From contig NZ_FQYK01000002.1 in the NCBI RefSeq assembly GCF_900141715.1, forward strand, positions 425,495 to 489,494: a stretch of DNA of 64,000 bases, read 5' to 3'. Under the pieces are notes generated by a model. The model was not told the DNA's origin. It saw only the letters and a program-made list of their open reading frames with translations, and made no database searches. Source of the stretch: Algibacter luteus (GTDB lineage: Bacteria; Bacteroidota; Bacteroidia; Flavobacteriales; Flavobacteriaceae). The position numbers were made by a program, and so were the translations under genes. Shown piece by piece: positions 9,711 to 19,900 of this stretch. Within the stretch, counting starts at the first letter, position 1, and each line of letters begins with the position of its first letter.

Positions 9711-9764
9711 AATCCCGTAGTTTTAGGCAACTATAGGATTATCTTATCATGCTATCAAATATTT

Positions 9765-9807
9765 TGTTTAACTTTTTTCATTATTTGTTAAACATTTTAT
9801 ATCTTTA
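9765..9807 (+). promoter_or_regulatory. Promoter 1 of photolyase island with inverted-repeat operator
   Basis: TGTTTAAC (9765-9772) and GTTAAACA (9787-9794) form a perfect inverted repeat with a 14-bp spacer, so the half-sites lie 22 bp (two helical turns) apart. They are followed by a -7-like TATCTTTA at 9800-9807. The whole 45-bp block aligns without gaps with the block at 18391-18440, including an identical GTTAAACATTTT. The start codon it serves is at 9825, giving a very short leader. Confidence 0.7.
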
Positions 9808-9824
9808 CATCAAATTTAGAAGTT

Positions 9825-10481
9825 ATGGCAAAGAAAAAAACAGTTTCAAAAAACGATATCATTACCAATTATATGGGTTATGTGTTAGAGCACGACCAAA
9901 ATCCGAAAAGCGTTTACGCCTTCGCAAAAGCTAATAATTTTGACGAGGCTAAATTCTACGAACATTTTGCATCGTTCGAAGCTATAGAGAAAGGAATTTT
10001 CGAAGCCTTTTTTGTAAACTCTTTAGAAGCACTTGACAATAATGAGGATTACAACATTTTTGATGCTAGAAACAAACTATTAAGTTTCTATTACACCTTC
10101 TTTGAAAACCTGACTGCCAACCGCAGTTATGTAACACACGTTTTAGACAAATACAAAAGCGACTTAAAAGGGTTAAAAATGCTATCTGGTTTAAAGCAAC
10201 ACTTTACCGCATACATTGGTGCTTTGGGCATTCAAATGTTAGAGATTAAGCAAGAACAAATAGAAAAAATACAAGATAAAGCCCTTAAAGAATCGGCGTG
10301 GTTACAATTGTTGCTCACCATGAAATTTTGGCTTGATGATACTTCGGCATCTTTCGAGAAGACCGATATTTTTATCGAAAAATCAGTCAACACCACTTTT
10401 GATGTGCTAGATATTGCACCTTTAAAAAGCGTGTTAGATTTAGGAAAATTTCTGTTTAAAGAAAAATTTCAAATGAACTAA
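9825..10481 (+). CDS. TetR-like protein, first gene of photolyase island
   Basis: 218 all-helical residues. The first 65 have the layout of a TetR-type HTH domain (KNDIITNYMGYVLEH, KSVYAFAKANNFDEAKFYEHFAS, then IEKGIFEAFF). The recognition helix is atypical: the usual GVSxGTLYxYF is replaced by NNFDEAKFYEHF. The C-terminal 150 residues are helical, like a TetR ligand/dimer domain. It starts 18 bp after the -7 box of the shared-motif promoter and ends 6 nt before the ABC1-type kinase gene. It could be the island regulator, but the degenerate HTH makes a non-DNA-binding helper role equally possible. Confidence 0.65.
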   Translation: MAKKKTVSKNDIITNYMGYVLEHDQNPKSVYAFAKANNFDEAKFYEHFASFEAIEKGIFEAFFVNSLEALDNNEDYNIFDARNKLLSFYYTFFENLTANRSYVTHVLDKYKSDLKGLKMLSGLKQHFTAYIGALGIQMLEIKQEQIEKIQDKALKESAWLQLLLTMKFWLDDTSASFEKTDIFIEKSVNTTFDVLDIAPLKSVLDLGKFLFKEKFQMN

Positions 10482-10487
10482 GACCTT

Positions 10488-11801
10488 ATGAAAACTATAG
10501 ATAGAATACCTACTTCAAAAATACAACGTGCCAGCAAATTGGTGTCTACGGGTGCTAAAGTTGGCGTAAATTACTTGAAATATTACGGCGACAAGATTGT
10601 AAGTACCGAAGAAGATGCCAAAGCACGTTTAAACAAAAATAATGCTACCGATATTTACGATGGGCTAAAACAACTCAAAGGAAGCGCGCTTAAAGTGGCA
10701 CAAATGCTAAGCATGGAAAAAAGCATATTGCCTCAGGCTTATGTGGAAAAATTCTCGTTAGCACAATTTTCGGTTCCACCATTATCGCCACCATTAGTAA
10801 TCAAAACATTTAAAAAATATTTTGGAAAACATCCAAATGATATATTCGATACTTTCAACGCAACTTCTGTAAACGCTGCCAGCATCGGTCAGGTGCACTT
10901 AGCAGAAAAGAATGGGAAAAAACTTGCTGTGAAAATCCAATACCCAGGAGTTGCGGAAAGTATTGCTTCAGATTTAGCTATGGTTAAACCTGTTGCTATG
11001 AGTATGTTTAATATTAAAGGAAAAGATTCTAATAAATACTTTAAGGAAGTTGAAAACAAACTGGTTGAAGAAACCAACTATATTTTAGAGATTGAACAAA
11101 GTAAGGAAATTGCCAAAGCATGTTCGCACATTTCTAATTTATCGTTTCCAAACTATTACGAAAATTTATCCTCAGAACGCATCATTACCATGGATTATAT
11201 GGTTGGTGAGCACCTCTCTGAGTTTACCGCATACAATCAAAATCAAGAAAAAGCCAATAAATTAGGACAAGCCCTTTGGGATTTTTACATGTACCAGATT
11301 CATAATCTGAAAAAAGTACATGCAGATCCGCATCCGGGGAATTTCTTAGTTTCTGAAAAAGGAGAATTAATAGCACTAGACTTTGGGTGTATGAAAACCA
11401 TACCTATGGCATTTTATACACCCTATTTTGAACTAGCCAAAAAAGAAAACATTAATAACAAAGCGTATTTTATTGATAAATTGTACGAACTTGAAATTCT
11501 AAGAAACGACGATAGCAAAGAAGAGTTAGAATTTTTTACAGACATGTTTCACGATATGTTGAGTTTGTTCACACAGCCTTTTCATCAAGATACTTTCGAT
11601 TTTTCTGATGGCGAATTCTTTGGTAAAATTGCCGAATTAGGTGAACGTTATTCAAAAAGTACCGATTTAAAAAAGATGAATGGTAATCGAGGTTCGAAAC
11701 ACTTCATTTACATTAATCGTACATTTTTTGGACTTTATAACCTCATGTTCGATTTAAAAGCTCAAGATATTCAAATCAATAATTATCTGAAATTATCATG
11801 A
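10488..11801 (+). CDS. ABC1/UbiB/AarF-family atypical kinase
   Basis: 437 residues. The family landmarks are present: LKGSALKVAQMLS near 65-77 (the KxGQ region), AASIGQVHLAE and the invariant lysine in LAVKIQYPG near 150, HADPHPGNFLV near 281 (catalytic loop) and ALDFGCMK near 297 (DFG-like). KxGQ reads KVAQ here, an alanine for the usual glycine. The family (UbiB, COQ8) supports isoprenoid-quinone synthesis as an ATPase or kinase. Bacteroidetes use menaquinone, and the location in a photolyase operon suggests a specialised paralogue acting on another lipid or cofactor. The stop overlaps the next start by 4 nt. Confidence 0.85.
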   Translation: MKTIDRIPTSKIQRASKLVSTGAKVGVNYLKYYGDKIVSTEEDAKARLNKNNATDIYDGLKQLKGSALKVAQMLSMEKSILPQAYVEKFSLAQFSVPPLSPPLVIKTFKKYFGKHPNDIFDTFNATSVNAASIGQVHLAEKNGKKLAVKIQYPGVAESIASDLAMVKPVAMSMFNIKGKDSNKYFKEVENKLVEETNYILEIEQSKEIAKACSHISNLSFPNYYENLSSERIITMDYMVGEHLSEFTAYNQNQEKANKLGQALWDFYMYQIHNLKKVHADPHPGNFLVSEKGELIALDFGCMKTIPMAFYTPYFELAKKENINNKAYFIDKLYELEILRNDDSKEELEFFTDMFHDMLSLFTQPFHQDTFDFSDGEFFGKIAELGERYSKSTDLKKMNGNRGSKHFIYINRTFFGLYNLMFDLKAQDIQINNYLKLS

Positions 11802-12430
11802 CTTATTTTAGTGAATCCGACATAGAGAATTTAGAGCATATCTACAAAATCAACTTAATAAATAGTTGTTCTGGATACAAATCGGCCAACCTTATCGGAA
11901 CAAAATCTGTTGATGGTATTGAAAATGTAGCAGTTTTTAGTTCGGTGACGCATATAGGCTCAAGTCCTGCTATGCTTGGTTTCTTTTTAAGGCCAACAAC
12001 AGTCATTAGAAACACCTATGAAAATTTAATATCCACAGGATTTTATACCATAAATCATATTCATCAAAACATAACAGAAGAAGCACATCATACCTCTGCG
12101 AAATATGATGCTTCAATCTCTGAATTTGATGCGACTCAATTAAAATCAGAATATAAATCTGAGTTTTTGGCGCCTTTTGTAAAAGAAGCACCTATTCAAT
12201 TAGCAATGCAATTTGTTGAAGAGTATAACATTAAAGCCAACAATACCATTCTAGTTATTGGTAAAATTGTGGGTTTATATATTAATGGCGATTTGGTGGA
12301 GGACGATGGTTTCGTTAACTTAACAAAAGCCAAAGTAGCCGCGATAAACGGTTTAGACGGATACGTGATTCCAGAAACCAAAACACGCTATGGCTACCAA
12401 CGCCCAAAAGAACTAAAAGTTAGTTTCTAA
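11798..12430 (+). CDS. Flavin reductase-like FMN-binding protein
   Basis: 210 residues of the split-barrel flavin reductase/flavoredoxin type: ANLIGTKSVDGIENVAVFSSVTHIGSSPAMLGFFLRP near 25-65 matches the FMN-binding core, and NTYENLISTGFYTINH follows as expected. Such proteins bind FMN and reduce free flavin or another partner with NAD(P)H. It overlaps the ABC1 gene by 4 nt. In this cluster it could feed reduced flavin to photolyases, whose active form is FADH-; that is inference from context. Confidence 0.85.
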   Translation: MTYFSESDIENLEHIYKINLINSCSGYKSANLIGTKSVDGIENVAVFSSVTHIGSSPAMLGFFLRPTTVIRNTYENLISTGFYTINHIHQNITEEAHHTSAKYDASISEFDATQLKSEYKSEFLAPFVKEAPIQLAMQFVEEYNIKANNTILVIGKIVGLYINGDLVEDDGFVNLTKAKVAAINGLDGYVIPETKTRYGYQRPKELKVSF

Positions 12431-12480
12431 ATTAATCTTCGAATTAGTAATAATTCGTGCAATGCGTATTAAACTAAGGC

Positions 12481-13911
12481 ATGAAAATACTTGTAACTGG
12501 TGCAACAGGATATATTGGTAAACGCATTGTTCCCTTTTTAGTTAATGAAGGGCATCAAGTGGTTTGTGCCGTTAGAGACAAGTTACGAGCTGAAAAAAGT
12601 TATTTTGAAGAAGAACTCATTGATGTTGTTGAAGTCGATTTTTTAAAACCTGAAACACTACACAACATCCCGAAAGATATAGATATAGCTTATTATCTTA
12701 TACATTCTATGTCTAACACCTCCAAAGATTTTAAATCTTTAGAAGAGCGATGCGCCGTTAATTTTAAAGAAGCTCTGGAATTTACAGATGTTAAGCAGGT
12801 TATTTATTTAAGCGGTATTACCAATGAAGATAAGCTTTCAAAACATTTACAATCTAGAAAAAACGTTGAAGAGCTGTTAGAATCTTCAAACTATGCCTTA
12901 ACCATTTTTAAAGCTGGAATTATAGTGGGCTCTGGTAGTTCATCATTTGAAATCATAAGAGATCTTGTTGAAAAACTCCCAGTAATGATTGCGCCTAAAT
13001 GGTTAAATACCAAAACGCAACCATTAGCGGTTCGCGATGTATTAGCATTTTTAACCAGAGCTGCAGGTAACGAAGCGGTTTACAATAAATCTTACGATGT
13101 TTTTGGTCCGGAAGTGTTAACCTACAAACAAATGCTGTTACAATTTGCTCAAGTCAGAGGCTTAAAGAGATACATTCTTACGGTGCCAGTTATGACCCCA
13201 AAATTGTCATCTTACTGGTTGTATTTTGTAACCTCAACGTCATACAAATTAGCAACTTCTTTGGTAGACAGTATGGGAGTTCAAATTATTGGAAAAGCCA
13301 GCGATATTAATACATTATTAGACGTTAACCCTTTAACTTACAAAGAAGCTGTTGCCTTAGCTTTTGAAAAAATAGAGCAAAATAGCATCATTTCAAGTTG
13401 GAAAGATTCTATGGTAAGTAGCGGCAGGTTGGGAAAGCAATTGCATAAATACGTTAATGTCCCCAAGTACGGATGCTTTACAGATTATAAAGAACGACCA
13501 ATTACAGATGCGCAAAAAACTATCGATAAAATTTGGGCCATTGGTGGTACAACTGGATGGTATTATGGTACTTTTTTATGGCGTATTCGGGGTTATATCG
13601 ATAAACTTGTTGGTGGTATTGGATTAAGACGCGGGCGCACAAGCCTTACAGAACTTGATGCAGGTGATGCTCTAGACTTTTGGCGTGTTATTTTTGCTGA
13701 TAAAGACCAACAGAAACTACTACTATATGCTGAAATGCGATTGCCTGGTGAGGCGTGGTTAGAATTTAAAATTGAAGATAATTTACTAAAACAAACCGCA
13801 ACTTTTAGACCTCGGGGACTTTGGGGAAGGCTTTATTGGTATACTGTGTTGCCTTTTCACGGATTAATTTTTAATGGCATGATTAATAAATTAGTTGATG
13901 TCCAATCATAA
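12481..13911 (+). CDS. NAD(P)-binding SDR-like protein with C-terminal DUF2867
   Basis: 476 residues. The extended-SDR N-terminus has the dinucleotide loop [10 protein letters not shown] (residues 6-15), with [10 protein letters not shown] near 76 and VIYLSGITN near 105. The last 150 residues, [28 protein letters not shown] and DALDFWRV, are the DUF2867 domain. This fused architecture is the form commonly found beside photolyase genes in Proteobacteria and Bacteroidetes. Its substrate is not known. It begins 50 bp after the flavin reductase and its end overlaps the DUF2256 reading frame by 14 nt. Confidence 0.85.
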
Positions 13912-14042
13912 AAAAAACAACCTACCACAAAAAATATGTGTTGTTTGTGAAAAGCCATTCAGCTGGCGAAAAAAATGGGAAAAGAATTGGATTAATGTAA
14001 AATATTGCAGTGAACGATGCAGACGGAACAAAACAACATAGG
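13898..14042 (+). pseudogene. DUF2256 zinc-finger-like small protein, reading frame broken by one extra base
   Basis: From ATG 13898 the frame reads [20 protein letters not shown] then FSWRKKWEK, the DUF2256 signature (C-x2-C, WRKKWE). It then reaches TAA at 13994-13996 after 32 residues. Shifting by one base near 13980-13988 restores [18 protein letters not shown], the second metal-site half (YCSxRC) expected for DUF2256, ending at TAG 14040-14042. The break lies in GGGAAAAAGAA; either one A or the G is surplus relative to a WEKNW reading. It may be a true frameshift, a sequencing error or recoding. DUF2256 genes are typical photolyase neighbours. The intact frame would overlap the SDR gene by 14 nt and the CRY-DASH gene by 26 nt. 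Confidence 0.8.
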
Positions 14043-15327
14043 ATTAGTTTGGTTTAAAAACGATTTACGCGTTCATGACAATGCCGTATTAAATAAAGCT
14101 ATTTCAGAAAACGATAAAACTATAGGCTTATTTTGTTTTGAACCTCAGCTTTTCGAGAAAGACCCATTCGGATTCAGAAAAACAGAAAAATACAGAGCTA
14201 AATTCCTTATTGAAACCATTATTGATTTAAAACAGCAACTTAAGTCTTTAAATATTGAGCTTTTTGTACACCACGCTCAACCTGAAAAAATCATACCTAA
14301 TCTAGTTTCAGATTATCAAATACAGAACATTTATCTTCAAAACGAATGGACCAGTGAAGAACGTAAAATAATTAATAATGTAAAATCTTCACTTCCTGAA
14401 AGCGTGACATGGCATACGATTTACAATCAGTTTTTGTTTCATCCAGACGATATTAACTTAGAAATACCAGAGATTCCTCAAGTCTTTACCAACTTCAGAA
14501 AAAAAGTAGAAAAAGAAAGTCGAGTAAGACCTTCTTTAACCGAGCTTTCAATTCAACAAGCATTAGAAATTAATAACCAGACGGAAATCCCATCGCTTAG
14601 TAATTTGGGTTTTGACGAATTTGAAACACATGCGAACACCGCGTTTCCATTTCAAGGTGGAGAAACCGCTGCTTTAAAAAGACTAGACAACTATTTTTTT
14701 GAAACTAAAAAATTGGGCTTTTACAAGAAAACAAGAAACGGATTAATAGGGACAGATTTTAGTTCGAAATTTTCACCGTGGCTAGCAAACGGCAGTCTTT
14801 CACCTAGAACAATTTATTGGGAAGTTAAAAGATTTGAAAAAGAACGCGTCAAAAACGAATCGACCTATTGGCTCATTTTCGAATTAATTTGGCGCGATTA
14901 TTTTAAATACATCTCATTAAAACACGGTAATGCCATTTTTAAAATTGGAGGTATTCTTGAAAAAAATTACGCCTGGAATACCAACCAAACTCTGGTCGAG
15001 CAGTGGATAAATGGAACAACAGCCTCACCTTTCGTTAATGCGAATATGCTAGAGCTTAAAAAAACAGGATGGATGAGTAATAGAGGTCGACAGAATGTCG
15101 CTTCATATTTTTCGAAAGAATTGATGTTAGACTGGAGAATTGGTGCAGCCTATTTTGAATCAATGCTCATAGATTATGATGTGCATAGCAACTATGGCAA
15201 CTGGATGTATGTATCGGGTGTAGGCAACGATCTAAGAGATAGAAAATTTAATGTGCAATTACAAGCGGAACGATACGACCCAAATGGGAAATTTCAAAAT
15301 TTATGGTTACAAGAAACCCTTTTCTAA
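14017..15327 (+). CDS. DASH-type cryptochrome/photolyase
   Basis: 436 residues. The N-terminal photolyase domain starts [14 protein letters not shown]; the FAD domain contains [20 protein letters not shown] (about 248-267) and [15 protein letters not shown] near 349. The diagnostic C-terminal block is [16 protein letters not shown]. The position equivalent to E. coli Trp384 is Tyr here (GNWMY), a known CRY-DASH trait, and the flavin-N5 Asn (SN) is kept. CRY-DASH enzymes repair cyclobutane dimers mainly in single-stranded DNA and carry FAD plus methenyl-THF. The ATG lies inside the DUF2256 frame, and the next photolyase follows directly after the stop. Confidence 0.93.
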
Positions 15328-16860
15328 ATGAAAATACTTAGACTCATACTTGGTGATCAACTCAACATGAAACACTCGTGGTTTAATGAAACTAACGATA
15401 GTGTTTTGTATTGTATGTTTGAAATGCGTCAGGAAACAGATTATGTTACGCATCACATTCAAAAAGTTATTGGGTTTTTCGCAGCAATGCGTCAGTTTTC
15501 AGAAGATTTAAAAAGCAAAGGGCACGAAGTTGTTTATTATAAAATTAACGGTTCAAAAAACACCCAAAATTTAACGGATAACCTTTCACAATTAATAGAA
15601 AAAAACAACATTGAAACCTTTGAATATCTGGAACCCGACGAATATCGATTAGACCAGCAATTAGCGGAGTACTGTAATTCGCTCAGCATAAAATCTAGCG
15701 TTTTTTCTACCGAACATTTTTATACAAAGCGTTACGATTTGCAAACTTTCTTTAAAGGAAAGAAACAGTATCTCATGGAAAATTTTTATCGAGATATGCG
15801 TAAAAAACATGATATATTAATGCATGCAGGCCAACCTGAAGGTGGTAAATGGAATTTCGATAAAAGCAATAGAAATAAATGGAAAGGAGATGTTGAAATA
15901 CCTGCTTATAAATTATTTAAAAACAAGGTTGATGATATTGTTTCTGATATTGAAAAATCTAAAATAAAAACCATAGGTGAATTTGATACCAAAACCTTCT
16001 CCTATCCTATTTCGAGAGCACAAGCTTTAGAGCAACTAAAATATTTTTGCGAACAGTTATTAATTCATTTTGGAGATTATCAAGATGCGATGCATACAGA
16101 TGAAACATATCTCTTCCATTCCCGATTATCTTTTGCGATGAATTTAAAACTTATTTCTGCTAAGGATGTCGTGCAGAGTGTTTTGAATTACTATCGTAAA
16201 CATGGTGAGGATATCGACATTTCTCAGGTTGAAGGTTTTATTAGGCAAGTTATTGGATGGCGCGAATACATGCGCGGTATGTATTGGGCTTTAATGCCAG
16301 AGTTTAAGAATCAAAACCAACTGAAAAATCAAAATAAGTTACCTGACTTTTTCTGGACAGGAAACACCAAGATGAATTGCTTGAAGCAGGCTATTGATAA
16401 TTCATTAGAAAACGGGTATGCACATCACATTCAACGCTTAATGATTACTGGAAATTATGCGCTATTAACAGAAACACACCCAGATGAAGTGGACCATTGG
16501 TACTTGGGGATTTATGTAGATGCTGTAGAATGGGTGCAACTCCCCAATACGCGAGGCATGAGTCAATTTGCTGATGGTGGCAAAATAGCAACAAAACCCT
16601 ATGTATCTTCCGCTTCATACATTAACAAAATGAGTAATTACTGTGACAGTTGCCACTACAATAAAAATAAAAAAATTGGAGAAGATGCCTGCCCATTCAA
16701 TAGCCTATACTGGCATTTTCTTGATTCTAAAAGACCACAATTACAAGATAATTTTAGGATGAAAATGATGTACAGCGTTTTAGATAAAATGAAAACGCAA
16801 GATGTAGACGAAATCAAAAAAAGAGCTCAACATATTATAAATCATCAAGATGAATATTAA
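15328..16860 (+). CDS. Fe-S bacterial cryptochrome/(6-4) photolyase (FeS-BCP, PhrB/CryB type)
   Basis: 510 residues, the usual FeS-BCP length. It starts KILRLILGDQLN, the family signature. Four cysteines suited to a [4Fe-4S] cluster are at C351 (KMNC), C439 and C442 (YCDSCHY) and C455 (DACPFN), each one residue offset from the ligands of Agrobacterium PhrB (350, 438, 441, 454). The block GYAHHIQRLMITGNYALL matches the family active site. Known members repair (6-4) photoproducts and use FAD plus 6,7-dimethyl-8-ribityllumazine. The gene has zero spacing from the CRY-DASH gene and overlaps the next photolyase-like gene by 11 nt. Confidence 0.93.
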   Translation: MKILRLILGDQLNMKHSWFNETNDSVLYCMFEMRQETDYVTHHIQKVIGFFAAMRQFSEDLKSKGHEVVYYKINGSKNTQNLTDNLSQLIEKNNIETFEYLEPDEYRLDQQLAEYCNSLSIKSSVFSTEHFYTKRYDLQTFFKGKKQYLMENFYRDMRKKHDILMHAGQPEGGKWNFDKSNRNKWKGDVEIPAYKLFKNKVDDIVSDIEKSKIKTIGEFDTKTFSYPISRAQALEQLKYFCEQLLIHFGDYQDAMHTDETYLFHSRLSFAMNLKLISAKDVVQSVLNYYRKHGEDIDISQVEGFIRQVIGWREYMRGMYWALMPEFKNQNQLKNQNKLPDFFWTGNTKMNCLKQAIDNSLENGYAHHIQRLMITGNYALLTETHPDEVDHWYLGIYVDAVEWVQLPNTRGMSQFADGGKIATKPYVSSASYINKMSNYCDSCHYNKNKKIGEDACPFNSLYWHFLDSKRPQLQDNFRMKMMYSVLDKMKTQDVDEIKKRAQHIINHQDEY

Positions 16861-18322
16861 GCCACAAATACATGTTGTATGGTTGAAACGCGATTTGCGC
16901 TTGCACGATAATGAGGCTATTTTTAATGCTCTAGTTACTGGTAAAAAGGTGTTGTTTTTATATAGTTTTGAGCCTTTACTTATTAATGACTCACATTACA
17001 GCGAGCGTCATTGGAATTTTATAAAAGAATCATTGGTAGATTTAAATAACGAACTGAAACCTTTTGATTCAAAAGTATTGATTGTTCAATCTGATATAAT
17101 CGCGGTATTCAATCAATTACTTACAAAATATCAAATAAACAAAATCTTTTCACATCAAGAAACAGGACTTTTGGTTACCTACAATCGCGATAAAAACTTT
17201 AAACGATTCTGTAAAAACAACCTAATTGATTGGATAGAAAACATAAATAATGGTGTACAGCGCGGATTAAAAAATCGGGAGCAATGGACGGCGCTGTGCA
17301 ATGCATTTTTCGAAATTGACGCTTTACCTTTTCAACCAAAACCCAATCAATTATTGAGTATTAGCGACATTGAAATGCTTGAGGCAAATTTTAAAATCCC
17401 TAATTTAAATACACCTCAAACTACAGCATTCCAAAAAGGTGGACGAAGCATGGGTTTGAAATACTTAAATTCCTTCTTTGAAACACGCTACCCTAATTAT
17501 ATGCTTCATATTTCAAAACCAGAATTAGCTAGAAAGAGTTGCAGTAGAATTTCGCCTTATATAGCTTGGGGCAACTTATCAATAAGAGAAGTCTATCAAC
17601 AAGCATATCATCTAAAAAAAACGGCAAAACATAAAAAAGCAATAGAAGCATTTATGTCTCGTTTACGATGGCAAGCCCATTTTATACAAAAATTTGAAAT
17701 GGAACATACCATGGAAGAAGCCAGTATCAATAAAGGGTTTCATAAACTTAAAAAAAGTATTTCACAAGAGTATTTAGAGGCTTGGAAAACAGGTCAAACT
17801 GGATATCCGCTCATTGATGCTTGCATGCGATGTTTAAACGAAACAGGATATTTAAATTTTAGAATGCGAGCTTTAGTGGTATCCTTCTTAACGCACAATC
17901 TGTGGCAACCTTGGCAAGAAGCCACCACCCATTTATCACAAATGTTTCTTGATTTCGAACCGGGTATTCATTTTCCGCAATTACAAATGCAAGCCGGTGA
18001 AACGGGAATTAATATGCTTCGTATTTACAACCCCGTAAAGAATAGTTTAGAACACGATCCGAGTGCTACATTTATTAAAAAATGGGTTCCAGAACTAAAA
18101 CTTTTAGATACGCCTTTAGCACATCAGCCTTATTTAATGACGCCTTTAGAAGAACAGTTATTCAATTTTAAACTAGGCGAAGATTATCCGTATCCTATTG
18201 TAGCGTTAGAATCTAGTCGTAAAAAAGCAGGTGACATTCTTTGGAATCTTCGAAAAAACAAGAAAGTAAAAGCAGAAAGCCAAAGAATTCTTAAAAAACA
18301 TATTGTAAAAAATAGGTTTTAA
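16850..18322 (+). CDS. Divergent cryptochrome/photolyase-family flavoprotein with altered flavin site
   Basis: 490 residues. The N-terminal fold begins VVWLKRDLRLHDNEAIFNAL and the FAD domain has SRISPYIAWGNLSIREVY and TGYPLIDACMRCLNETGYL. Alignment by eye of DFEPGIHFPQLQM (368-380) with DYEMASNVGNWQW of the CPD photolyase at 22831-24135 is gap-free. It puts His374 where the flavin-N5 Asn (E. coli N378) sits, Leu378 at the triad Trp (W382) and Met380 at the substrate Trp (W384). Canonical dimer repair is therefore doubtful; a photoreceptor or another repair specificity is possible. The motif AGETGINMLRIYNP follows. It overlaps the previous gene by 11 nt and ends the first transcription unit of the island. 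Confidence 0.85.
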   Translation: MNIKPQIHVVWLKRDLRLHDNEAIFNALVTGKKVLFLYSFEPLLINDSHYSERHWNFIKESLVDLNNELKPFDSKVLIVQSDIIAVFNQLLTKYQINKIFSHQETGLLVTYNRDKNFKRFCKNNLIDWIENINNGVQRGLKNREQWTALCNAFFEIDALPFQPKPNQLLSISDIEMLEANFKIPNLNTPQTTAFQKGGRSMGLKYLNSFFETRYPNYMLHISKPELARKSCSRISPYIAWGNLSIREVYQQAYHLKKTAKHKKAIEAFMSRLRWQAHFIQKFEMEHTMEEASINKGFHKLKKSISQEYLEAWKTGQTGYPLIDACMRCLNETGYLNFRMRALVVSFLTHNLWQPWQEATTHLSQMFLDFEPGIHFPQLQMQAGETGINMLRIYNPVKNSLEHDPSATFIKKWVPELKLLDTPLAHQPYLMTPLEEQLFNFKLGEDYPYPIVALESSRKKAGDILWNLRKNKKVKAESQRILKKHIVKNRF

Positions 18323-18394
18323 GAATTTCAATCTCCTCATTTTCAATTATTTAATCTAAATAATAGAAAAAATCAATAGTGCTATGATAATTTT

Positions 18395-18437
18395 TGTTTA
18401 ATTTATTTCGTAAAAAGTTAAACATTTTGTAAATTTG
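18395..18437 (+). promoter_or_regulatory. Promoter 2 of photolyase island with the same inverted repeat
   Basis: TGTTTAAT (18395-18402) and GTTAAACA (18417-18424), 14-bp spacer, precede TAAATTTG (18430-18437), an exact -7 match to TAnnTTTG. TTTC at 18406-18409 sits 20 bp upstream, where the -33 element belongs, so the operator half-sites bracket the -33 region. The next start codon is at 18455. Confidence 0.75.
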
Positions 18438-18454
18438 AGTAATAAGATTACAAA

Positions 18455-18883
18455 ATGATACTAAACACAACACATTTTAATAAAGAACACAAGCAGTTAC
18501 TAAGCGATTTGGTAGGTGTGCCTTTTTCATTTTTAGAAGCGTTTAAAATGAAAGGTGTTGGGTCAAAACGTATGATCATTGAAGATGTGAGTCCGAATTT
18601 ACAGTTATATATGAATCTTGTTTCAGATATTAATTACGCCAACATCGAGTTGCGTAAAAACGGGGTTCTCATTTACATTAATAAAGGATTACAAAACTAT
18701 ACTTGGGCTATTCCATACTATCAATTGGTGATCTATAAAACAAACGGCGCAAGTATTCATGCTCAAGGAAGATACATTCACTTTAAAAATAACAAAACGT
18801 TTAGAGAGAACAAATCATTTTTCAGAAAAATGCTTGATGAAAAGATTAGGTACGATGAAAAATATAATTTTTTAGGCGTATGA
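18455..18883 (+). CDS. Uncharacterised 142-residue protein opening the second island operon
   Basis: I do not recognise a named domain. The sequence is soluble and mixed alpha/beta, with basic and aromatic character: LQLYMNLVSDINYANIELRK, then a run of predicted beta strands (GVLIYINKGLQNYTWAIPYY, QLVIYKTNGASIHAQGRYIHF) and a charged C-terminal helix (RENKSFFRKMLDEKIRYDE). No cysteine pairs or signal peptide are seen. It starts 18 bp after the -7 box of the shared-motif promoter, and its stop overlaps the DUF2805 start as ATGA, so translation is probably coupled. This suggests a dedicated role in the photolyase system. Confidence 0.8.
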   Translation: MILNTTHFNKEHKQLLSDLVGVPFSFLEAFKMKGVGSKRMIIEDVSPNLQLYMNLVSDINYANIELRKNGVLIYINKGLQNYTWAIPYYQLVIYKTNGASIHAQGRYIHFKNNKTFRENKSFFRKMLDEKIRYDEKYNFLGV

Positions 18884-19152
18884 ATTTAACGATCAATGAA
18901 ATTGATAGAATAATTGAAATGGCCTGGGAAGACCGAACCACATTTGAAGCCATTAAATATCAATTTAAACTCGATGAGCAACAAGTTATTGAGCTCATGA
19001 GAAAAGAAATGAAACCAAGTAGTTTCAGGCTTTGGCGAAAGCGAGTACAAGGAAGAAAAACCAAACATGAAAAATTGAGAGTTTTTGAAAAAGGACGATT
19101 TAAATGCAGCAGACAAAAGCAAATTACGCACAACAATATTTCAAAACGTTAA
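18880..19152 (+). CDS. DUF2805/TIGR03643 small basic protein
   Basis: 90 residues. The start NEIDRIIEMAWEDRTTFEAI and the core QFKLDEQQVIELMRKEMKPS then FRLWRKRVQGRKTKHEKLR are characteristic of TIGR03643 (DUF2805), an HTH-like helical fold with a very basic tail. The family is repeatedly found beside photolyase/cryptochrome genes. Its role is unproven; the fold and charge suggest nucleic-acid binding. Translation is coupled to the preceding unknown gene by a 4-nt overlap. The C-terminal 20 residues (KCSRQKQITHNN) are longer than the core family. Confidence 0.88.
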   Translation: MNLTINEIDRIIEMAWEDRTTFEAIKYQFKLDEQQVIELMRKEMKPSSFRLWRKRVQGRKTKHEKLRVFEKGRFKCSRQKQITHNNISKR

Positions 19153-19204: not shown

Positions 19205-19900
19205 ATGGAAATAGAAAAATTAATCACTAAAAAAAACGGTAATAAATTGAATGGTTTCACTTTGGAAGACATTGGAAACGATCATTTATTTACAGGTTTA
19301 GAAACACCAATGAAACCAGATGCTTTCAAACTTTCGGATTCTGAAAAGAAAGCGCGTATTGCAATTCTGTTTGAAGAAATTATGGATGTTATGGGTTTAG
19401 ATTTGAATGATGATTCATTACAAGGAACACCCGAGCGTGTCGCTAAAATGTATATTGATGAGATTTTCTCTGGACTAAACCCTGCCAATAAACCAAAGGT
19501 TGCTTTGTTTGACAACAAGTACCAATACAACCAGATGTTGATTGAAAAAAATATTACGTTTTATTCAAACTGCGAGCATCATTTTGTACCCATAATAGGG
19601 AAAGCGCATGTGGCTTACATATCATCTGGAAAAGTTATTGGGCTTTCAAAACTAAATAGAATTGTTCAGTACTATGCCAAACGACCGCAGGTGCAAGAGC
19701 GCTTAACTAACCAGATTGCAAACGAGTTAAAATCTATTTTAGAAACCGATAATGTTGCAGTAATAATCGATGCGAAACATTTATGTGTATCATCTAGAGG
19801 TATAAAAGACGACACGTCCTCAACCGTTACGGCTTATTATGGCGGGCAATTTAATACTTCGGAAAAAATAACAGAATTACAGAACTATATAAACACTTAA
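19205..19900 (+). CDS. folE: GTP cyclohydrolase I
   Basis: 231 residues. Zinc ligands are visible as C123 and H126 in NCEHHFVP and C194 in HLCVSSRG, matching C110, H113 and C181 of E. coli FolE. QGTPERVAKMYIDE and the C-terminal SSTVTAYYGG are further family marks. The enzyme converts GTP to 7,8-dihydroneopterin triphosphate, the first step to folates and pterins. Its place inside the photolyase island suggests it supplies the methenyl-THF or pterin antenna of CRY-DASH and CPD photolyase. It could also be a second copy of a housekeeping folE elsewhere, which this window cannot show. Confidence 0.95.
   Translation: MEIEKLITKKNGNKLNGFTLEDIGNDHLFTGLETPMKPDAFKLSDSEKKARIAILFEEIMDVMGLDLNDDSLQGTPERVAKMYIDEIFSGLNPANKPKVALFDNKYQYNQMLIEKNITFYSNCEHHFVPIIGKAHVAYISSGKVIGLSKLNRIVQYYAKRPQVQERLTNQIANELKSILETDNVAVIIDAKHLCVSSRGIKDDTSSTVTAYYGGQFNTSEKITELQNYINT

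Follow-up and report, generated by a model that had tools for sequence, protein, structure and literature searches.

What reads the inverted repeat that stands before both operons of a photolyase island in Algibacter luteus, and are the island genes the only ones it serves? The window, that is, the whole stretch of 64,000 nucleotides analysed, carries operator 1 at 9765-9794 (TGTTTAAC-N14-GTTAAACA) and operator 2 at 18395-18424 (TGTTTAAT-N14-GTTAAACA), both on the forward strand, and at each of them two inverted half-sites 22 bp apart match TGTTTAA-N16-TTAAACA exactly. Five bases separate the end of either operator from a -7 box on the same strand, TATCTTTA (9800-9807, near TAnnTTTG) or TAAATTTG (18430-18437, TAnnTTTG-like), and at both promoters 17 bases lie between that box and the ATG (9825 and 18455). 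A two-turn inverted repeat common to both island promoters, with half-sites 22 bp apart and with coding starts at the same short distance behind the -7 box, had been described in the first-pass annotation, and the window sequence bears this description out. The pattern proposed there for scanning, TGTTTAA-N15-TTAAACA, is one base short of the true gap; it was discarded as missing both sites and as giving, with up to three mismatches, a chance-level count in the window (27 matches, 27.45 expected). With the gap at 16 and up to two mismatches there are four matches against 3.02 expected, operators 1 and 2 being the only exact ones; with numbers so near to chance the window count on its own is no evidence, and it is the genome-wide exact count that serves as such.

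The island genes all run in the forward direction. Behind operator 1 the first gene of the operon encodes a TetR-like protein (9825-10481; TetR_C_23), and Pfam scans identify after it an ABC1/UbiB-like atypical kinase (10488-11801), a flavin-reductase-like protein (11798-12430), an NAD(P)-binding and DUF2867 protein (12481-13911), a member of the DNA photolyase/cryptochrome family (14017-15327), a photolyase-related protein of the DPRP family (15328-16860) and a second DNA photolyase/cryptochrome family member (16850-18322). The second operon starts with a gene (18455-18883) whose product has no Pfam family at E up to 1, and a DUF2805 protein (18880-19152) and GTP cyclohydrolase I (folE, 19205-19900), both recognized by Pfam scan, come after it. 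DUF2452 proteins occupy the same slot before DUF2805 in two other genera (L107 and L147); DUF2452 was rejected as an identity for the 18455-18883 product, these proteins not being its blastp relatives at 1e-6.

The whole-genome scan for which the first-pass annotation had called, done at gap 16, finds the motif above random. The 3.38 Mb genome holds six exact copies, each upstream of a gene, against one of the reversed pattern (13 against seven at one mismatch). Outside the window, the site at C13:19043 lies between a CarH-type gene, whose stop is 11 bases before it, and crtI-crtB-crtZ(like)-crtY (crtZ is so named by position and resemblance, having no Pfam match), and that at C5:566622 precedes a GHMP kinase gene, probably for mevalonate kinase since it adjoins a diphosphomevalonate decarboxylase gene. 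Another, at C9:145093, precedes a gene for a fasciclin-domain protein, and the one at C14:144944 stands at a contig end before a secreted-looking protein, and 41 bp further along a second copy follows with one mismatch. In three genera operators come in pairs, 40-42 bp apart, ahead of fasciclin genes or genes of secreted type (L032 13945 and 13986, L108 4003 and 4045, L162 4046 and 4086).

A CarH search of the genome has a single match, the MerR/B12 gene of CarH type immediately ahead of that site and crtI on contig 13 (C13:18132-19028 plus stop). The earlier statement that no MerR/CarH/LitR-type photoreceptor gene lies in the window agrees with this sole match elsewhere and with Pfam scans of 18 window proteins at 5-25 kb, which found none. 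From the sequence comparisons set out here, the repeat is very probably the operator of this unlinked light-sensing repressor, with its MerR and adenosylcobalamin-binding domains, encoded beside crtI. The protein has an N-terminal MerR winged helix (PF13411, MerR_1; E 1.1e-12) and a B12-binding four-helix bundle (PF02607, B12-binding_2; E 1.1e-8), and it aligns to Thermus thermophilus CarH at E 2e-13, sharing its Trp, Glu-His and axial His. The W-x9-EH motif is kept, W143, E153 and H154 being invariant in 14 aligned CarH proteins, as is the axial His of ExHxxG in the Rossmann part (NEIHDIG against GERHEIG; H193 invariant in the 14). His132 of the T. thermophilus protein, its light-state cobalt ligand and a residue that may not be family-defining, is replaced by Gln144, also invariant in the 14 aligned. 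The closest solved structures, by sequence as by fold, are those of T. thermophilus CarH; that protein or its B12 domain accounts for all 20 best fold matches of the predicted structure, a model of moderate quality (mean pLDDT 78) whose full-length matches have TM about 0.55.

Could the repeat be a chance palindrome of AT-rich DNA, or a generic promoter feature? The region is AT-rich and window matches at two to three mismatches are at chance level, but the comparison with relatives makes this hardly credible: 199 genomes of the same family, one per genus, hold 580 copies of the motif against 25 of the reversed control, so that the scan of related Flavobacteriaceae, also proposed at first pass, finds it non-random. 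A gap-13 control yields 23 copies in the same 199 genomes, of which 21 were examined: 17 turned out to be within ORFs, and no regulon-type gene stood behind any of the 21. Exact direct repeats of the half-site at 22 bp occur in only 64 places when the two strands are pooled. Among the 150 pairs with gaps of 10-22 in 37 genomes, gap 16 accounts for 95, about 21 times the average for the remaining 12 gaps (4.6 per gap).

Among the matches listed there are 90 gap-16 sites of other genomes, not chosen by function, and for 63 of them a homologue of a gene from the regulon or the island begins no more than 300 bp away, with one of the 90 inside an ORF; the reference genes came from the A. luteus genome only (window island and neighbours of the six sites), its own sites being outside the 90. 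By an automatic rule the homologues behind these listed sites are fasciclin (19), TetR (13), crtI (11), the 18455-18883 type (eight), the L032-type secreted protein (five), DUF2867 (three, in other genera), SRPBCC (two), GHMP kinase (one) and TspO (one). The strict rule leaves 27 sites with no reference-type gene behind them. Four GLPGLI/Porph_ging proteins, one rhodopsin, one desaturase-family protein, one pterin-synthase-folE operon, one MsrA-folE pair and one sigma factor-crtI-crtB operon are within these 27, and about a dozen have no evident light link. The sites before Porph_ging (GLPGLI) family proteins belong to four genera (L095, L109, L120 and L126). In genome G034 a copy of the motif (L122 9496) extends over the beginning of the bacterial rhodopsin gene, a placement that suggests CarH control of that rhodopsin.

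The distribution of the motif bears on who reads it. A CarH homologue is present in 161 of the 199 genomes, 150 with a main-clade protein (E below 1e-60) and eleven with a divergent one. The motif is present in 147 of the 150 main-clade genomes (134 of the 137 that are at least 90% complete), the three without an exact site being G020, G115 and G158, and in none of the 19 genomes at least 90% complete that have no CarH at all. Six of the 38 genomes with no CarH match do have the motif (G003, G102, G170, G172, G192 and G208), all six being 73-88% complete. Motif presence is associated with main-clade CarH plus two divergent I-type proteins at a Fisher p of 7.6e-30, uncorrected for shared ancestry.

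The first-pass annotation had offered as reader either the TetR-like first gene or an unlinked regulator, and it is the second that is the better of the two, with CarH on contig 13 as its bearer. An autoregulatory TetR-like protein binding the island sites has in its favor the position of its gene, first behind operator 1, HTH-like N-terminal helices in its predicted fold and the 13 homologues behind the 90 listed sites; further, the motif is present in two (G102, 81% complete, and G170, 73%) of the five genomes with a TetR match and no CarH match. It is nevertheless very unlikely, and the TetR-like gene was rejected as site reader on the phyletic tests: 30 of the 31 main-clade CarH genomes with no TetR homologue keep the motif, while it is absent in the other three of those five genomes, among them G082 and G202, 99% complete and with TetR and no CarH, which have no copy near TetR or genome-wide. 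The sites are also at crtI, fasciclin and GHMP-kinase genes, and in the TetR-like protein a Pfam search that allowed E up to 1 detects no TetR N-terminal domain.

Which protein binds cannot be told from co-occurrence by itself, and a different regulator might always travel with the carotenoid cluster and bind the sites, CarH being a passenger. Three findings make this improbable. In the 30 best-scoring of the 161 CarH genomes, crtI is behind CarH at all 30 loci, and 28 of the 30 intervening gaps hold the site with at most one mismatch (two do not). The half-site itself, TTAAACA, includes TAAACA and with it the known CarH core TnnACA. Third, a base change in the operator accompanies a change in the CarH recognition helix. 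A two-mismatch site copy also overlaps the carH start codon at 24 of the 30 loci; in A. luteus (L062 1478-1507) its left half is perfect and its right half coincides with the start sequence ATGAACA, and such copies may reflect autoregulation or, in part, coding constraint.

The helix change is to R-K-WE-T/S, from R-I-WE-K, in nine of the eleven divergent CarH genomes; in the main clade the helix was read in 38 of the 150 proteins, 36 of them I/K. The nine genomes have two TGTTTAA sites in all, against two for the control, and the form TGTCTAA-N16-TTAGACA is in five of the nine (nine sites) against five of the 190 others (six sites), with a Fisher p of 1.2e-5 uncorrected for phylogeny. On manual reading of the result table, 11 of these 15 TGTCTAA sites are at carH, crtI, fasciclin, folE, TetR, ABC1 or SDR genes or operons, the rest being in G006, G021, G144 and, for one of its two, G158. 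Divergent CarH proteins with R-I-WE-(Q/R) keep TGTTTAA, right before TetR in G025 and beside carH in G007, and in G049 (R-V-WE-Q) TGTTTAA sites occur twice, once at an ECF sigma-crtI operon and once at a fasciclin gene. A tree of 50 CarH proteins, some of its branches long and many forks open, unites the K types and G025 in one supported group with G007 and G049 beside it, and helix and operator thus vary together inside one clade; since the R-K-WE-T/S proteins fall in one clade, the operator change amounts to few events. A one-residue code for the operator base was rejected as holding only in part: G158 (R-V-WE-K) has the TGTCTAA form, G074, with an I/K helix, has a C-type site with one mismatch ahead of crtI, four of the nine R-K-WE genomes have no exact C-type site, and G020 and G115 have neither exact form. 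In eight of the nine R-K-WE types the CarH gene faces an operon of one or more fasciclin genes and then crtI (L193-L199, L201), so that gene order too links fasciclins to carotenoids.

Because the motif follows CarH and not TetR, and because helix change goes with operator change, the repeat is taken as the operator of an unlinked CarH regulon, and we infer with high confidence from these sequence relationships that CarH binds it. The claim that it is the operator of the island stands insofar as both island promoters have it, and is too narrow for a regulon that most probably extends genome-wide, to judge from the genes behind the sites, over photolyases, folE, carotenoids, fasciclins and, in one relative, a rhodopsin.

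Where the operator lies with respect to the promoter was assessed from 111 distinct sites scanned in both directions, with 0.18 occurrences of TAnnTTTG expected per position. The element starts at site position 16 in 40 cases and at position 36 in 16, giving two spacing classes, A and B respectively; the island sites, with both their -7 boxes at position 36, are class B. A further 21 cases at position -5 are attributed, by estimate rather than by tool, to the motif itself, whose TG and T-rich flank overlap the element. In the dark a B12-bound CarH oligomer would occupy the two inverted half-sites and cover the core promoter. In class A the right half of the operator would overlap the -7 box, and in class B it ends 5 bp before that box and would cover the region of the expected -33 element. 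Light would break the Co-C bond, the oligomer would release the DNA, and photolyase, folE, carotenoid, isoprenoid and fasciclin genes would be expressed together. Dark repression with release by light is proposed by analogy with characterized CarH proteins. MerR proteins classically activate from the promoter spacer, and the existence of two classes, with the island in the second, would also fit a CarH that represses at crtI and activates at the island promoters. This is unlikely, though somewhat less so than a TetR reader or a passenger CarH, given that the operator is over the core promoter in both classes and that, in the available text of PMC9304148, characterized CarH proteins repress in the dark.

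The CarH proteins of T. thermophilus and Bacillus megaterium have in common with the flavobacterial one the protein family, the TnnACA core, the placing of the site over the core promoter and carotenoid targets (here, TAnnTTTG at position 16 or 36 and the crtI homologues behind listed sites). The operators differ. Known ones are described, in that part of PMC9304148, as three or four tandem 11-bp direct repeats nnnnTnnACAn, whereas the flavobacterial ones are two inverted half-sites 22 bp apart with no conserved third; a middle half-site at 11 bp in the T. thermophilus style was not found across the 111 sites, and a third central half-site was rejected, the middle of the operator being unconserved. 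Within the 30 CarH-crtI gaps, where 11-bp direct repeats were looked for and tandem arrays of them were not found, there are 20 exact convergent pairs at gap 16 and no exact direct pair at 11 or 22 bp; one mismatch per half-site gives 31 convergent pairs, one direct pair at 11 bp and none at 22 bp. The 31 direct pairs then seen at 21 bp are a pseudo-direct reading, the half-site being nearly self-complementary.

The class II LitR proteins of Pseudomonas (PplR, PmlR) resemble the present case in their light-induced photolyase, folE and cryptochrome-like genes; as far as the accessible part of PMC9758184 goes, they keep one of two B12-binding domains, where flavobacterial CarH keeps its B12 motifs, PmlR2 works with a LOV photoreceptor and the sites are TGTACA-N12-TGTACA. 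Chryseobacterium lacus, also of the Bacteroidota, makes carotenoids in light and its authors speculated on a CarA/LitR-like regulator, with neither an operator nor an established regulator identified in the portion of PMC7064467 at hand. Literature searched by title and abstract contained no flavobacterial CarH operator or regulon, which is weak evidence of novelty as subscription journals are poorly covered there. Most probably this is a variant architecture of the CarH-type operator with a genome-wide regulon. In a phylum scan the motif is in 53 of 296 genomes and, by a split made by hand from the result table on motif counts alone, in 28 of 30 of the same family, none of six from elsewhere in the order, 19 of 37 from other orders of the class and six of 223 from outside the class; its occurrence in those other orders means that the operator may predate the family.

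A fuller proposal, to which we give even chances, is that flavobacterial CarH binds with two-fold symmetry, in contrast to the head-to-tail mode of known CarH, and places a pair of DNA-binding domains on inverted half-sites separated by two helical turns. The recognition helix would largely determine one base of the half-site, and by this mode CarH would run a global light regulon that joins the repair of DNA and the supply of pterins to isoprenoid flux, rhodopsin and envelope proteins with fasciclin domains that may hold carotenoids. The site-bearing fasciclins are at most candidate carotenoid binders; according to the text available of PMC10147662, an algal FAS1 protein binds carotenoids and a cyanobacterial homologue did not. 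If the CarH reading is right, the inverted design needs a protein-DNA geometry unlike that of the solved CarH complex. CarH is in use in optogenetics, and the natural operator change would offer a specificity test for it. A large family of light-exposed bacteria would gain a defined light switch, and a single sequence would predict its light-responsive genes, including those for unstudied fasciclin, GLPGLI-type and secreted proteins.
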